A stretch of 48,253 nt of DNA from Nitrospira sp. (GTDB lineage Bacteria; Nitrospirota; Nitrospiria; Nitrospirales; Nitrospiraceae): positions 1 to 48,253 of the forward strand of contig VGXB01000013.1 of NCBI GenBank assembly GCA_016873515.1. Direction: 5' to 3'. The position numbers and the translations under genes were made by a program. Shown in pieces: positions 35,954 through 42,067 of the stretch. The first letter of the stretch is position 1, and the number at the start of each line of letters is the position of its first letter. The notes below the pieces were generated by a model. That model had not been told where the DNA came from. It saw nothing but the letters and a program-made list of their open reading frames with translations, and did no database searches.

Positions 35954-37147
35954 TTAGGCTACACTTTCAACGATTTCCTGATAATAGGATTCGAGCAAAG
36001 CTGCACGAGGCTGCTCAACAATGGCCAATTGCCGTTGGTCAAACGTATTGGCACAGTAGAGGTACACGAATTCGTCCACTGTGCCAAGCTCGACATGTAG
36101 TTGACGCCCCTCCGACTCCTGACGAGTCGTTTCTTGAATGACACAACGATTATTGAGACGTTCCCACGCTGCTTGTGCAGAGGGCCCATGATTTTCGTAT
36201 AACGGAGAATCAGCACCGCGAGGCTGCCGTGACAGATCGGAAAAGTTGAGTGGCATACTGTCGTCTGGCTCTGTTGTTTCGTCCCAATCCAACACAGCTG
36301 CACACTCCTCCTGTAGATGATATAAAGGTCCATCGTCCGTCACTTCTTCACCCGACTGATAACGGATCAATTCAGACGGTTGACTCAACTTCAAACCTCT
36401 CTCCGCCAACGCCCGTTGAAAGGGCACCCGTCTGGCCAACTGCCTCGTTTTCTCGCAGACAATCATGCGACTGTTCGGACCGAGCACCGCGCGAAGTTGA
36501 TTCAGCTTCATGCCCAGTCCCGTGCGTTGCTCAAATAATGTTTGCCAGCCGACATCCCGAGTCCGCATGAAAGTTCTCCAGCTGTCGCTTGGGATGCCCG
36601 GATCGTGTTCGGCCTGCACCAGCGCATGAGTGGCGACGATCAGATCGTATTGGCCTGACAACTGCTCGGTCTCTGCATCCACACAATCGAAACGGACGTT
36701 GGGCAATCCTAACTCTCTCGCTTTCTGCTGCGCGGCAGTAATGGAGGCCGCCGAACGATCGAGACCGACAAATTCCCGATCAGGGAACTCGCGGGCATAG
36801 AACGTCGTAAGAATGCCGACTCCGCAGCCGAAATCAAGGACGCGCGTGGCACTACCAACACAAGCCAGCACCCGCAATCCAACCGTGTCGTAGTAGTCAT
36901 ATCGCTGGCTGTGTAGAATGGGGAGCACCGACGGTTGGGCGGCCAGGTCGTAGAATGATACGTCTTCGCGGCGATCGCCGTTTCGTTTTCGTTCGACTTG
37001 CGCAAGGAGCTGATTCAGATCCGCGCGGGACAGCTGCCGCTTTTGCCAGGCGAAATACTCGCGGTCGGTGGTAAATCGTCTGAGTCCCCACCAGGCCAAA
37101 TGCTCGTGTAGCGATTGTTGCGGTGAGTGGTGAGGCATTATTGCCAT
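35954..37147 (-). CDS. Class I SAM-dependent methyltransferase
   Basis: About 397 aa. A Rossmann methyltransferase domain lies at about residues 85-200, with motif I VLDFGCGVGILTTFYA, the acidic ribose-binding position in EFVGLDRSAASI, motif II-like RFDCVDAETEQL and motif post-II YDLIVATHALV. The N-terminal 80 residues (WWGLRRFTTDREYFAWQKRQL) and the long C-terminal part have no recognised domain. Substrate unknown. The longest frame begins with TTG at 37180; I prefer ATG 37147. It follows proA on the same strand across a repeat-bearing spacer of about 100 bases. Confidence 0.75.
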   Translation of the reverse strand: MAIMPHHSPQQSLHEHLAWWGLRRFTTDREYFAWQKRQLSRADLNQLLAQVERKRNGDRREDVSFYDLAAQPSVLPILHSQRYDYYDTVGLRVLACVGSATRVLDFGCGVGILTTFYAREFPDREFVGLDRSAASITAAQQKARELGLPNVRFDCVDAETEQLSGQYDLIVATHALVQAEHDPGIPSDSWRTFMRTRDVGWQTLFEQRTGLGMKLNQLRAVLGPNSRMIVCEKTRQLARRVPFQRALAERGLKLSQPSELIRYQSGEEVTDDGPLYHLQEECAAVLDWDETTEPDDSMPLNFSDLSRQPRGADSPLYENHGPSAQAAWERLNNRCVIQETTRQESEGRQLHVELGTVDEFVYLYCANTFDQRQLAIVEQPRAALLESYYQEIVESVA

Positions 37148-37169
37148 CTCATCACGCCTGCTCAAAACG

Positions 37170-37278: not shown

Positions 37279-38643
37279 TCACGGTCTCTTTAGCATGATG
37301 GCATCAAAGTAGGTTTCCGGCACCGGGTGCGGCAATCGTAACTGTCCCAACCCGAACCCGACGTACTTCTCGCACGTCAATTGGTCCAAGCCAATCGGCC
37401 CCCTCGCATGCAGGCGTGATCCGCTGAGGCCGATATCGGCCCCCATACCGTAGCTGTCTCCCGCATTGAGCCTCGACGACGCGTTCACGAAGACCGCCCC
37501 GGCATCGACCTCGCGTGTGAAGCGCATCGCCGATTTATACCGAGTCGTCATGATGACGGCAGTCAGGCATGGCCCGTACTCCGCGATGTGGACCAGTGCT
37601 TCGTCCAGCCCTTCCACCATTTTCACAGCCAAAACAGGCCCTTGGAACTGCGTGCGCCAATCGGTTTCCGTTGCCGGCACGATCGCGGTATGGCCCGTCA
37701 TGGCCATCTGCCCCATCAGCGCGATCGTCTTGGGACACCCGCGCACTTCAATCTTGAATTGGTCCAGCAGCCGGTTGATCAATGGAGGTAAGAACTGCCG
37801 CCCAATGACCTGTTGCACGAGCAAGGTGTCGAGCGAGTTGGCTGCTCCCGGCGCTTGCACTTTGGAATTGATCACGACGTTTTGGGCCAGGGGGATATCC
37901 GTATCGTCATCGACGTACAATTGGGTGAGCCCACCGTCATGGCACAACACCGGCATCTTGGCCTGTTCCATGACTGCCTTACGAAGGCCAACCCCACCTC
38001 GTGGGATGATTGCATCCAGAATCTTCCCCGATCGTATCAACTCAAGCGCGAACTCTTTCTCCGGGCGATCGATCACAATCCAGGTGCCGGCCGATACGCC
38101 GCACTTTTCCACGGCTTCCCGCAGAGATCGTTCAATCGCCTGGTGCGTCACGCTCCATTCAGACGCGCCACGAAAAACACAGAGGTTGCCCGACTTCACG
38201 CAGAGCGCAATTGATTCCACGGTCACCAGAGGAATCAACTCAGAAATGACTCCGATCACTCCGATAGGTACCCGCACCCGTTCCACCTGAAATCCATCCG
38301 GCCGTTCCCATCTGGCAGTCACGGCGCCGACCGGATCGGGCAAATCGGCAATCATCCGAAGCCGCTCAGCCATTTCCTTAATGGAGTCGGCCGTCATTCG
38401 CACACGCGCGACGACGGCTTTCATCCGGTCCTTCTTGACATTGCCTTCAAAGGACTTTCCGACTGTATCGACGTCTTTCCCATTGGCCGCCAGAATGGCG
38501 CCGCCATCGGCCTCCAGCTGATCCGCCATCGCCCGCAAGGCTTTGTCTTTATCCGGTCCGGAGAGCAAGGCCAGCTTCCGTGCAACGGCCCGAGAATCTT
38601 TCAACAGCTTATCGAGATACAATTTCACCGGAACGTCCGGCAT
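37279..38643 (-). CDS. proA: Gamma-glutamyl phosphate reductase homologue lacking the catalytic cysteine
   Basis: ProA-family aldehyde dehydrogenase-fold protein of 454 aa. The family features are clear: VPIGVIGVISE, IPRGGVGLRKAVM, and the C-terminal NASSRLNAGDSYGMGADIGL with LHARGPIGL. In active ProA the nucleophile sits in a PGVCNAxET motif; here the equivalent reads PGAANSLDT, with Ala268 at the Cys position, and the preceding GVGNCH-type region is replaced by HDGGLTQ. Acyl-enzyme chemistry on glutamyl phosphate is therefore doubtful. No proB is adjacent. It may be a paralogue with another role, and a canonical proA may exist elsewhere. The start is preceded by GGGGGTGAGGG. Confidence 0.85.
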   Translation of the reverse strand: MPDVPVKLYLDKLLKDSRAVARKLALLSGPDKDKALRAMADQLEADGGAILAANGKDVDTVGKSFEGNVKKDRMKAVVARVRMTADSIKEMAERLRMIADLPDPVGAVTARWERPDGFQVERVRVPIGVIGVISELIPLVTVESIALCVKSGNLCVFRGASEWSVTHQAIERSLREAVEKCGVSAGTWIVIDRPEKEFALELIRSGKILDAIIPRGGVGLRKAVMEQAKMPVLCHDGGLTQLYVDDDTDIPLAQNVVINSKVQAPGAANSLDTLLVQQVIGRQFLPPLINRLLDQFKIEVRGCPKTIALMGQMAMTGHTAIVPATETDWRTQFQGPVLAVKMVEGLDEALVHIAEYGPCLTAVIMTTRYKSAMRFTREVDAGAVFVNASSRLNAGDSYGMGADIGLSGSRLHARGPIGLDQLTCEKYVGFGLGQLRLPHPVPETYFDAIMLKRP

Positions 38644-38676: not shown

Positions 38677-38859
38677 TGTCTCTTCAAGAGGCACATGACT
38701 GGCGACGCGGGCTTCACAAACAACGCAGGGCCGGACTATACCACGAGATTTTTTCGGCAGTAAAGGCGCCGAGACTGGTGAATACTCACTGTACAATCTC
38801 GCCGGCAACCCGCAGTTACAGTAGAAACTCAGGAATCATGCGAGCTAGAATGTTTGCCC

Positions 38860-40086
38860 GTGACACAAGACGACGCACGCGCGCAATACAACTATTTGAT
38901 GACCCTCTGCATCCGACGCGAAGAAGCTTTCGGCCCCCTCGCGTTGGCGTTTCTCCGCGAACCGGGCTTTGACCGGCTAGGCCTGACGGCGGAGGAGCAG
39001 TTCAATCTCTATATGGCCACGGCGAACGCCTTTACAGCTGAACCGAAACGCTACGCCGCCAAACTTGAGTGTTTGCAGAAAGCCCGCGATATCCTCCCTC
39101 GCACGACGTTCCAGGACCACGAGTTAACTCGGCATCTCCACCAAACTATACAAAAAACCGAAGCGGAGCTTGAGATTTACACGCAGGCGATGAAAGTCGC
39201 ACGTCCCCCATCTTTGGCAGGCCAGCGCCTGTTCGTGGAAACGGACGCCCCAGAATATTTTCTTGACCTGGCCCAGAAATGTGCCAGAGACTATTATCAA
39301 ACCAAGTATCGAGTCTCCACGGAAACCAAGACGGCGCAGCACTTCGGCGGTACGCATGGACGGTTTGCCCCCGACAATCCAACCGTCCAAAATGAATACC
39401 CCGGTGCCTGTGCCCCATTCATGGCGGCGCGAGCACATGGGTTTCATCTGCTGCTGCCATTCGATTTGAAGATCAGCTGCAAGCCGGATGGTCCGCTTGA
39501 CGGCGGTGTGAGGATCTTCTACGCCAAACTCGGCTATTCCTATCCGCTGCGCTACGACATGGGCAAACTCTGTGGCTATCATGACGGACAAATGCTCGAT
39601 GTTGCTTTGGACGACCCGCATCTCCTGTTCGTCTCCGTATCCGCCGTCAAAGAGCCGGATTTTCGATTCCTCCCGCCGGACCGCGAACCGGACGTGCCAG
39701 ACAACTTGGCCTATCCCCTGGCCGTGTTGAAGACAGTCGGATCGCTAGGGCCCTTCATCCAAATAAGTTGCAAATTCAAGATTTGGTTCGATGCCTCGAT
39801 CATCTCGTTGCTAATCCAGGGCGCGCCGGATCTTGAGGAGTACGGGCTTCGTGGCGCCACAGGACTCATGACTCGCACCTATGCCTCTGACCGAGTCGAA
39901 GCCTACGCCGAATCTTCCCGCCAACCCTGGCAAGAAGGCTTGAGCTACAATTTCATCAATCTGCATCTGGGCCTGCTGCCCGGCATCGAAAGCGCCACTA
40001 TTCCCTTCAACACACCGATCTTTACCCTGTACCCAGTCCTGAACCGACAGACTTACACGATGCAAGAACGCCCGGAAGCTCTATGA
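38860..40086 (+). CDS. Conserved-looking hypothetical protein
   Basis: A 408 aa soluble protein of no family I recognise. The N-terminal 100 residues are helical and charged (NYLMTLCIRREEAFGPLALA, then KLECLQKARDILP), the middle and C-terminal part are strand-rich with many aromatic residues (GFHLLLPFDLKISCKP, YSYPLRYDMGKLCGYHDG, LSYNFINLHLGLLPGIE). There is no signal peptide and no evident catalytic motif. Start is GTG 38860 or TTG 38854; neither has a ribosome site. Its stop overlaps the start of the beta-barrel gene by 4 nt, suggesting a functional pair. Confidence 0.65.
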   Translation: MTQDDARAQYNYLMTLCIRREEAFGPLALAFLREPGFDRLGLTAEEQFNLYMATANAFTAEPKRYAAKLECLQKARDILPRTTFQDHELTRHLHQTIQKTEAELEIYTQAMKVARPPSLAGQRLFVETDAPEYFLDLAQKCARDYYQTKYRVSTETKTAQHFGGTHGRFAPDNPTVQNEYPGACAPFMAARAHGFHLLLPFDLKISCKPDGPLDGGVRIFYAKLGYSYPLRYDMGKLCGYHDGQMLDVALDDPHLLFVSVSAVKEPDFRFLPPDREPDVPDNLAYPLAVLKTVGSLGPFIQISCKFKIWFDASIISLLIQGAPDLEEYGLRGATGLMTRTYASDRVEAYAESSRQPWQEGLSYNFINLHLGLLPGIESATIPFNTPIFTLYPVLNRQTYTMQERPEAL

Positions 40087-40650
40087 ATTCTGAACAGATC
40101 AAGCAACTCGGTCCGTTGGCAACGCTGGCTGACATATGGGAGGGAGATAAGGGGGCAGATGTCGCGCCGTCAGACCATCGGGGAACGGAGCAAAGCGCGT
40201 TTCGCGAGCGGATTACCTTTGCGCCAATCAGCCCCGTGCACAATCACGAACAGGTCTTGCATGGCTTGCGCTACATGACGGTGGCGCGGCGAATCGGGGA
40301 AACCGATCTCTTCCATGAAGAAGTGGGCTACTGGCTCTGGGGTCCGGGAGAGCGTCAAGTATTGCACTGCCTCATCGTGCCGCGCGGAGTGGCATTGATT
40401 GCCGGCGACACGGCAGAACCGACGGCTACAAGCTTTACCCTGCTGGCGAAGGCGGGGTCAAAGACCTATGGGATTTGCTCGAACCGGTTTCTCGACAAAG
40501 AGTTTAAGACCGTCCGGTTACGAGTTGACCGTAACCGTCCTTGATCAGAACCGCTTTCACTACAAAGAGGACACCCAACTCCGCATGCCGGGAAAGCCTG
40601 ATCTATTTCACCACACCGATGAGAACACACTCGCACGGGTAACAGGCTAG
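40083..40650 (+). pseudogene. Haem-binding-like (FABP-like) beta-barrel gene with single-base frameshift
   Basis: The first frame (40083-40544) encodes most of a beta-barrel protein of the nitrobindin/DUF1794-related type: RERITFAPISPVHNHEQVLH, EEVGYWLWGPGERQVLHCL, VPRGVALIAG and TYGICSNRFLDKEF. It then runs into unrelated residues and stops. In the +1 frame from 40518 the family ending appears (YELTVTVLDQNRFHYKEDTQ, then DLFHHTDENTLARV). Deleting one T of CGGTTACGAG at 40518-40519 restores a continuous 188-codon gene. The ATGA overlap with the upstream gene shows it was coupled. Either a recent frameshift or a sequencing error; the ligand of the barrel is unproven. Confidence 0.75.
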
Positions 40651-40674: not shown

Positions 40675-41973
40675 CTAGTTGTGACTGGGCCCCCTATTCG
40701 GCACCATTTGCTCCTTTTGCCTAGCCAGCAAATCAGCCAGCCAGGCCCAAAGGAGCATCAACGGTACCAAGGCCCAGGCGATGTGTGCCGTCGTCGCCCC
40801 CAGCGCTTTCACGCCGGTGATCAACCAGGCTGTTGATGCGTCGCCACCACGTGAGACGGCTGTATCAATAAAATTCTTCGCCTTGTACTTCTCTTCGCGA
40901 GTAAGGACGGTAAACAGCACTTCGCGCGATGGTTTGGACAGGGCATACTCCCCCACCCTGCGCAGAACCGAAAAGACAACATAGACGGCCAGTGTCGGCC
41001 AGATGGCGATACCCAGAAATCCCACTACACTGATTGCTGGAAGAAACACGAGACCTGCCACCAGACCAAGCTTGCGAATGACCCGATTCGTCATGAAGAG
41101 CTGAGTCACCCAGGTCAACGAACCAGTTACAAAATCGAGCGTAGAAAAGAAACGGGTGCGTGCTTCCGGTTGATCGAGATATTCCGAGACCAGACGGGTC
41201 TGCTCAAGGTAAAGGAACGTGGCTGTCATGGTGAGCAGCGCCAGGTACCCGCAGATCCCCAGTAAATAGGGCGATGCGCAGGTCAGCCGCACTCCCGCCA
41301 GAAAGCTTCCCTTGAGGGGATCGCCTGGATGCGGTTGATGATGCGCAGACCGTTCTCCGCCCCATCGCTCAAGCCGGGTGATGCAGCCCAGGCACAGCAC
41401 AAGGAAGACCGCCGAGGCCAGCATCAGCACCGGGACCGAGAACACGAACGTCAATCCTGTGGTGAGGAGAGGACCGAGCAACGCGCCGCTGCTCCCTCCC
41501 GCGGCAATGATCCCGAACAACCGTGCCCCCTGCTCCGGCAAAAATAGATCGTCCATGAAACTCCAAAACACGGAGACTACGAACAGATTGAAAACCGAAA
41601 GCCACACAAAAAAACCACGGGCGATCCATTCGGGAGAGACATGACTGGTCATCAAGGCATAGAACGCCAGCAGATTGGTAATGAAGAAGGCATAGACTGT
41701 CAGCAACAGTCGATAGCGTGAACAGCGCGCGGACACCCATCCAAAAAGCGGGGTTGCCGCCAACATGGTCAGAAAGGTCCCCGTCATCATCCACGGAAGA
41801 TTCTGAATACCACTTTCAATGGCCATTTCGTCCCGTACCGGACGGAGAATGGAGTAGCCGCAGAGGAGACAGAAGAAATAGGCGAAAGCCCAGACCAAAG
41901 GGACGACTTCTTCCCGCTTGGCGCCCAGTAAGACGGCCCATCGGGTAATGACAGCGTGATCTGGTTCAGCCAT
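40675..41973 (-). CDS. Tlc/NTT-like nucleotide carrier or related MFS transporter
   Basis: About 432 aa with roughly 11-12 hydrophobic spans. The opening VWAFAYFFCLLCGYSILRPVRDEM and the late SKPSREVLFTVLTREEKYKA followed by KNFIDTAVSRGGDA match the Npt/Tlc ATP:ADP antiporter-like family, whose intracellular-parasite members exchange host nucleotides. Free-living bacteria carry divergent members of unknown substrate, often listed as MFS transporters. The start is ATG 41973; an upstream GTG at 42003 is in frame. Lone gene, divergent from ltaE. Confidence 0.75.
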   Translation of the reverse strand: MAEPDHAVITRWAVLLGAKREEVVPLVWAFAYFFCLLCGYSILRPVRDEMAIESGIQNLPWMMTGTFLTMLAATPLFGWVSARCSRYRLLLTVYAFFITNLLAFYALMTSHVSPEWIARGFFVWLSVFNLFVVSVFWSFMDDLFLPEQGARLFGIIAAGGSSGALLGPLLTTGLTFVFSVPVLMLASAVFLVLCLGCITRLERWGGERSAHHQPHPGDPLKGSFLAGVRLTCASPYLLGICGYLALLTMTATFLYLEQTRLVSEYLDQPEARTRFFSTLDFVTGSLTWVTQLFMTNRVIRKLGLVAGLVFLPAISVVGFLGIAIWPTLAVYVVFSVLRRVGEYALSKPSREVLFTVLTREEKYKAKNFIDTAVSRGGDASTAWLITGVKALGATTAHIAWALVPLMLLWAWLADLLARQKEQMVPNRGPSHN

Positions 41974-42067
41974 GAACTCGCAGTGTACCAGGTATGAATT
42001 CACCTACCACGGAAATAATCTGCTAGAATGCACTCGGCCAGTCGTAGGCTTTTAAGGACATCCGCGC

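Follow-up and report, generated by a model that had tools for sequence, protein, structure and literature searches.

The window, that is, the whole stretch of 48,253 nucleotides of a Nitrospira contig that was analysed, contains a gene for a homologue of gamma-glutamyl phosphate reductase (ProA) without the catalytic cysteine and, directly downstream on the same strand, a gene for a methyltransferase.

37279..38643, minus strand: Cys-less ProA paralogue, 454 aa, ALDH/GPR fold; best PDB matches in both sequence and fold are the gamma-glutamyl phosphate reductases 4ghk and 1o20
37840..37842, minus strand: codon GCC (Ala268), which occupies the position of the ProA nucleophile Cys in alignments with solved structures and in the column comparison
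37843-37845, minus strand: codon GCA, Ala267
38224..38247, minus strand: altered substrate loop, residues 133-140, ISELIPLV where canonical ProA has IYESRPNV
37282..37332, minus strand: paralogue-specific C-terminal tail, residues 438-454 (17 residues), PHPVPETYFDAIMLKRP, with near-invariant PHPVPxxYxDAxML that is absent from canonical ProA
35954..37147 (upper end approximate), minus strand: class I SAM-dependent methyltransferase of about 397 aa (uncertain start codon), with the C-terminal domain PLYENH...GRQxHxELG...YLYCANTFDQRQ

The initial annotation held that alanine stands in place of the catalytic cysteine, and comparison with solved structures bears this out. The residues around codons 267 and 268 read NSKVQAPGAANSLDTLL, and GCA GCC at 37840-37845, within NSKVQAPGAANSLDT, encode Ala267-Ala268; in phmmer alignments with the enzymes of Thermotoga maritima (1o20) and Burkholderia (4ghk), the Cys of PGTCNAAE or GTCNTMET pairs with Ala268. 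The equivalent of this cysteine in Drosophila P5CS, C598, is the catalytic nucleophile (PMC8963878). Among 136 distinct paralogue sequences from the two families in which they were found, the nucleophile column holds Ser in 72, Ala in 39, Pro in 17, Thr in 7 and Gly in 1; no other cysteine takes the nucleophile's place, which the initial annotation had named as one refutation of its reading, as Cys occurs in 0 of the 136. In canonical ProA, the column is Cys in 37 of 37. Because it tolerates A, S, P, T and G, the position in the paralogues is not that of a catalytic residue. The missing ALDH oxyanion Asn was considered as the mechanism of inactivation and dropped, since the active site of human ALDH18A1 is described as keeping the Cys alone (PMC10650815).

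GCC is two base changes away from TGC, and thus a single-base sequencing error does not explain Ala268, nor does an error or change private to one genome, the non-Cys state being common to all 136 sequences. The broader suspicion of a pseudogene or an assembly error, which a single draft assembly of 83 contigs might raise, is refuted by the recurrence of the same state in these 136 sequences, by their open frames and by dN/dS values far below 1. Across ten close pairs, dN/dS of the paralogue is 0.03-0.12 (Nei-Gojobori counts, rough at dS near 0.8), and that of the methyltransferase neighbour is higher, 0.20-0.24. Values of this kind indicate a protein under constraint, not one that is decaying.

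Membership of the ProA family is supported by full-length homology, with about 37% identity to the solved enzymes, and by profile scores above the cut-offs that NCBI uses for naming: 404 bits for NF001221 (cut-off 289) and 327 bits for TIGR00407 (cut-off 317), the latter a threshold below which some other members of the clade fall. The cut-off of NF001221, an equivalog model, was exceeded by all five Cys-less paralogues tested (37279-38643 of the window, L053, L118, L177 and L183). The top Foldseek matches of the predicted structure are 1o20, 4ghk and EcGPR, at E values of 1e-29 or better, and these confirm the GPR fold; the model is of modest confidence (mean pLDDT 68.7, below 50 in the tail) and too weak for judging the pocket or the docking of the tail.

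Beyond the nucleophile, the initial annotation was right that the substrate loop is changed, from YESRPNV to SELIPLV, but its statement that all other ProA landmarks remain proved too strong. When full-length sequences only, 132 paralogues and 35 canonical ProAs, were compared, canonical Tyr162, Arg165, Asn167, Glu351 and Lys262, each of which is present in 34-35 of the 35 canonical sequences, were found to be mostly replaced in the paralogues, the Tyr, Arg and Asn of the YESRPN loop in more than 90%. Glu351 gives way to Gln, Lys or Pro, Lys262 to Cys, Gly or Ser, and Ala191 to Trp; most paralogues have also lost the Arg292 and Cys268 of canonical ProA, and the 17-residue tail is new. At the same time, S134, W163, D272 and R221 have become near-invariant in the paralogues. 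Three cysteines were considered as substitutes for the lost nucleophile. C234, which takes the place of a Lys near the HD motif, is Cys in 111 of 132 paralogues and G, S or A in the remaining 21, which include all members of the second family that were read, and it is therefore not an obligatory substitute; C303 and C148 are both common to canonical ProA as well.

Judged by its sequence, the paralogue cannot use the thiol mechanism of ProA and, with high confidence, would have no ProA activity, and the loss of this chemistry in the whole Cys-less clade is well supported. Catalytic residues gone, fold kept and purifying selection in force are what characterize a pseudoenzyme, and on this reckoning the paralogue would be one, a gene product of lost chemistry and new constraints rather than a decaying relic.

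Proline synthesis does not depend on this gene. Besides the paralogue, the assembly to which the window belongs (1.98 Mb, draft, 83 contigs, 99.8% complete) has a single ProA match, which is canonical, scores 494 bits and lies on a different contig; its motif RPSTCNAMET retains the Cys. The one proB neighbours obg and nadD and is on a third contig. With canonical proA and proB both present, proline synthesis is explained without the paralogue, and another route to proline need not be invoked. The initial annotation had offered a different enzyme for proline and a non-thiol or non-catalytic paralogue as alternatives; the two hold together, the canonical genes being present and the ProA thiol mechanism of the paralogue lost, by its sequence. 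It had proposed looking for a second proA next to proB; both canonical genes are in the genome, though not side by side.

In a maximum-likelihood tree, the Cys-less sequences form a single clade with support of 100, as the initial annotation had suggested a ProA tree might reveal, and this clade adjoins the canonical ProAs from the two families that carry it (SH-aLRT 99). The groups were unchanged when the tree was repeated without doubtful rows and with the Xanthomonas outgroup row dropped. This placement suggests a duplication in the common ancestor of the two families. In an AU test on a thinned set, a position outside the ProAs of the phylum was not rejected (p 0.277), so duplication within the lineage is favoured, not proven.

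These findings bear on the proposal that the paralogue is a dead regulatory subunit of proline synthesis, which would join oligomers of canonical ProA (or ProA-ProB) or sequester glutamyl phosphate and thereby tune flux. The retained fold, the apparent derivation from the ProA of the same lineage and the presence of canonical ProA alongside it in the genomes inspected are all in keeping with this proposal, and dead subunits that activate a live paralogue are known, as in the AdoMetDC prozyme of trypanosomes (PMC6221367). However, the loci that were read link the paralogue to neither proA nor proB, its constant neighbour is a methyltransferase, and only 43 of the 150 columns conserved in canonical ProA remain conserved with the same residue, which makes a proline regulator improbable.

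Two ProA matches, one canonical and one second copy, are present in nearly all of 147 genomes of the same family, and the second copies are 50-94% identical to the paralogue of the window; Nitrospira moscoviensis, N. lenta and many Nitrospira MAGs are among the carriers. The exceptions, judged by eye, are mostly drafts of low completeness or fragments at contig edges, and the most complete genome seen without a second copy (G032) stands at 92%. In a phylum-wide search, a second copy was found in another family of the same order as well; a third family of that order, represented by a single genome, has canonical ProA alone, and the other Nitrospirota families sampled gave ProA scores at the canonical level. 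Even small genomes, of 1.7-2.0 Mb and 98-99% complete (G006, G051 and that of the window), have kept the paralogue.

The constant methyltransferase neighbour, on which the initial annotation had not remarked, is the best clue to the function of the paralogue. In 119 of 119 loci with downstream DNA, drawn from both families, it is the next gene downstream on the same strand; the sole locus without it ends inside the paralogue and lies outside the 119. The upstream genes are wholly different between the families, with a transporter, ltaE, a nucleotidyltransferase-like gene and gnd in the first and rpsB, tsf and pyrH in the second. This constant pairing in both families, while other neighbours change, is the new observation here, and among the papers searched none combined Nitrospira with this Cys-less ProA paralogue. 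Between the two genes, a terminator scan found no site on their strand, and the one weak promoter-like match, at 37137-37165, is no more than expected by chance.

Other genes around the pair vary. An MFS/ADP-ATP-translocase-like transporter (40675-42003, minus strand) lies upstream of the paralogue in the window; it is upstream on the same strand in more than 60 first-family loci, often within 150 bp, and is absent from second-family loci. In the window, two divergent genes (38854-40544, plus strand) are inserted between the transporter and the paralogue, encoding a 410-aa protein without a Pfam or NCBIfam match and a THAP4/nitrobindin-like haem-binding protein. A functional link of the paralogue to these two was set aside, as both are restricted to part of the family. 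In one genome, Cys-less ProA paralogues lie on two different contigs, and each is accompanied by a methyltransferase gene. The paralogue and its methyltransferase may have been duplicated or moved there as a unit, which is unsure given 5% contamination in the assembly.

The methyltransferase has an intact SAM core, with Pfam Methyltransf_31/25/12 above their cut-offs and the motif VLDFGCGxG, and its fold model reaches a pLDDT of 92. The core of the model matches many class I enzymes, with Z of about 16-18 over 175-200 residues, and indicates no substrate. Its C-terminal domain has no Pfam family above cut-off (a match to PF22062 is below it) and exists in two arrangements: a single-domain form of 390 aa, as in Nitrospira, and a 500-aa form with the domain in apparent tandem, in the second family and some first-family genera (L051, L055, L057, L060, L176-L187). 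In genomes sampled from the two families, the full-length methyltransferase profile scores above 400 bits; in other sampled Nitrospirota families the full-length form was not found, the best score, 58 bits, being that of a generic SAM domain. Relatives on plasmids were dismissed as generic SAM-domain matches covering 27% of the query.

From gene order and co-occurrence, we infer a partnership of the two proteins, and their joint function can be proposed with good confidence. Our preferred explanation, to which we assign a probability of roughly 55%, is that a ProA-derived pseudoenzyme serves as the non-catalytic partner, a substrate-binding or regulatory subunit, of the adjoining methyltransferase. 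A duplicate of ProA would have arisen in the stem of the order that contains Nitrospira, lost its thiol chemistry and been kept for another job. It would retain the ALDH fold, probably as an oligomer; its altered pocket may bind a ligand or substrate, such as a glutamate-like metabolite or a dinucleotide; its tail may dock on the methyltransferase, which, with its intact SAM motif, would perform the chemistry. Proline would meanwhile be made by normal ProA and ProB. The dead ProA as binding or regulatory subunit of the methyltransferase is thus the leading but unproven reading.

Constant adjacency can also be read as consecutive steps of one pathway, and a novel enzymatic activity would account for very low dN/dS and newly invariant residues as well. 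The paralogue might accordingly be an enzyme of non-thiol chemistry that shares a pathway with the methyltransferase. It could, for instance, carry out hydride transfer or phosphate/amide chemistry on a glutamate-like metabolite, with methylation preceding or following that step. Its purifying selection is very strong (0.03-0.12 against 0.20-0.24 for the methyltransferase), S134, W163 and D272 are newly invariant, the gene pair is constant, and dehydrogenases without the catalytic Cys are known elsewhere. On the other hand, the nucleophile, the RPN loop and the conserved Glu are all gone, the place of the nucleophile holds no conserved residue and Cys234 is not universal, and we regard such an enzyme as unlikely, if deserving of serious attention. 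Less credible still is the idea that the paralogue is a protein substrate of the methyltransferase, its tail, for instance, being methylated as a switch. The dedicated and strictly linked pair and the almost invariant tail residues would suit this, but methyltransferases of small molecules, of tRNA and of proteins all resemble the core of this one, and we consider the idea a long shot.

Known systems resemble the preferred partnership of pseudoenzyme and methyltransferase in part. Compared with ProA (TIGR00407, NF001221; PDB 1o20, 4ghk, 8zok), whose homology, fold and naming scores it shares, the paralogue has no nucleophile Cys, has its RPN loop and Glu replaced, carries an extra tail and is always linked to the methyltransferase rather than to proB. 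ALDH16A1 and other pseudoenzymes of the ALDH superfamily likewise retain the ALDH fold without catalytic residues and are thought to work through protein contacts (PMC10650815), but ALDH16A1 is an animal protein of another ALDH branch, is not derived from ProA and has no known methyltransferase partner. The trypanosomal AdoMetDC prozyme, too, arose by duplication of a metabolic enzyme and was kept after catalysis had been lost, although a partner-subunit role is only proposed for the paralogue; the prozyme activates its own live paralogue, whereas the constant genetic partner of the Cys-less ProA is an unrelated methyltransferase (PMC6221367). The partner itself has the core and SAM motif of class I SAM methyltransferases (Methyltransf_31/25; ChlM, NodS, METTL6 and UbiG folds) and differs from them in its C-terminal domain without a Pfam family and in a full-length form limited to two sampled families.

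The paralogue is thus, as far as sequence can tell, a pseudoenzyme with an unexpected constant partner. Annotation with NCBI models, which name it glutamate-5-semialdehyde dehydrogenase, risks adding it to the count as a second ProA, with a function that it almost certainly does not have. It provides a clean natural case in which the nucleophile of an enzyme was free to drift (A, S, P, T, G) and selection continued to act on most of the protein. We tentatively propose, at somewhat less than even odds, that the two genes form a previously undescribed system for methylation in the Nitrospira order, made up of a dedicated methyltransferase and a dead enzyme of proline biosynthesis that has turned into its substrate-binding or regulatory subunit. 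Few nitrite-oxidising or comammox bacteria are as widespread as Nitrospira, and the gene pair is present in almost all members sampled from their own family and the neighbouring one, even in streamlined genomes; being near-universal in both, it probably serves something basic to the group. A strongly conserved dead ProA beside the same methyltransferase suggests a new role, outside proline synthesis, in these important nitrifying bacteria.
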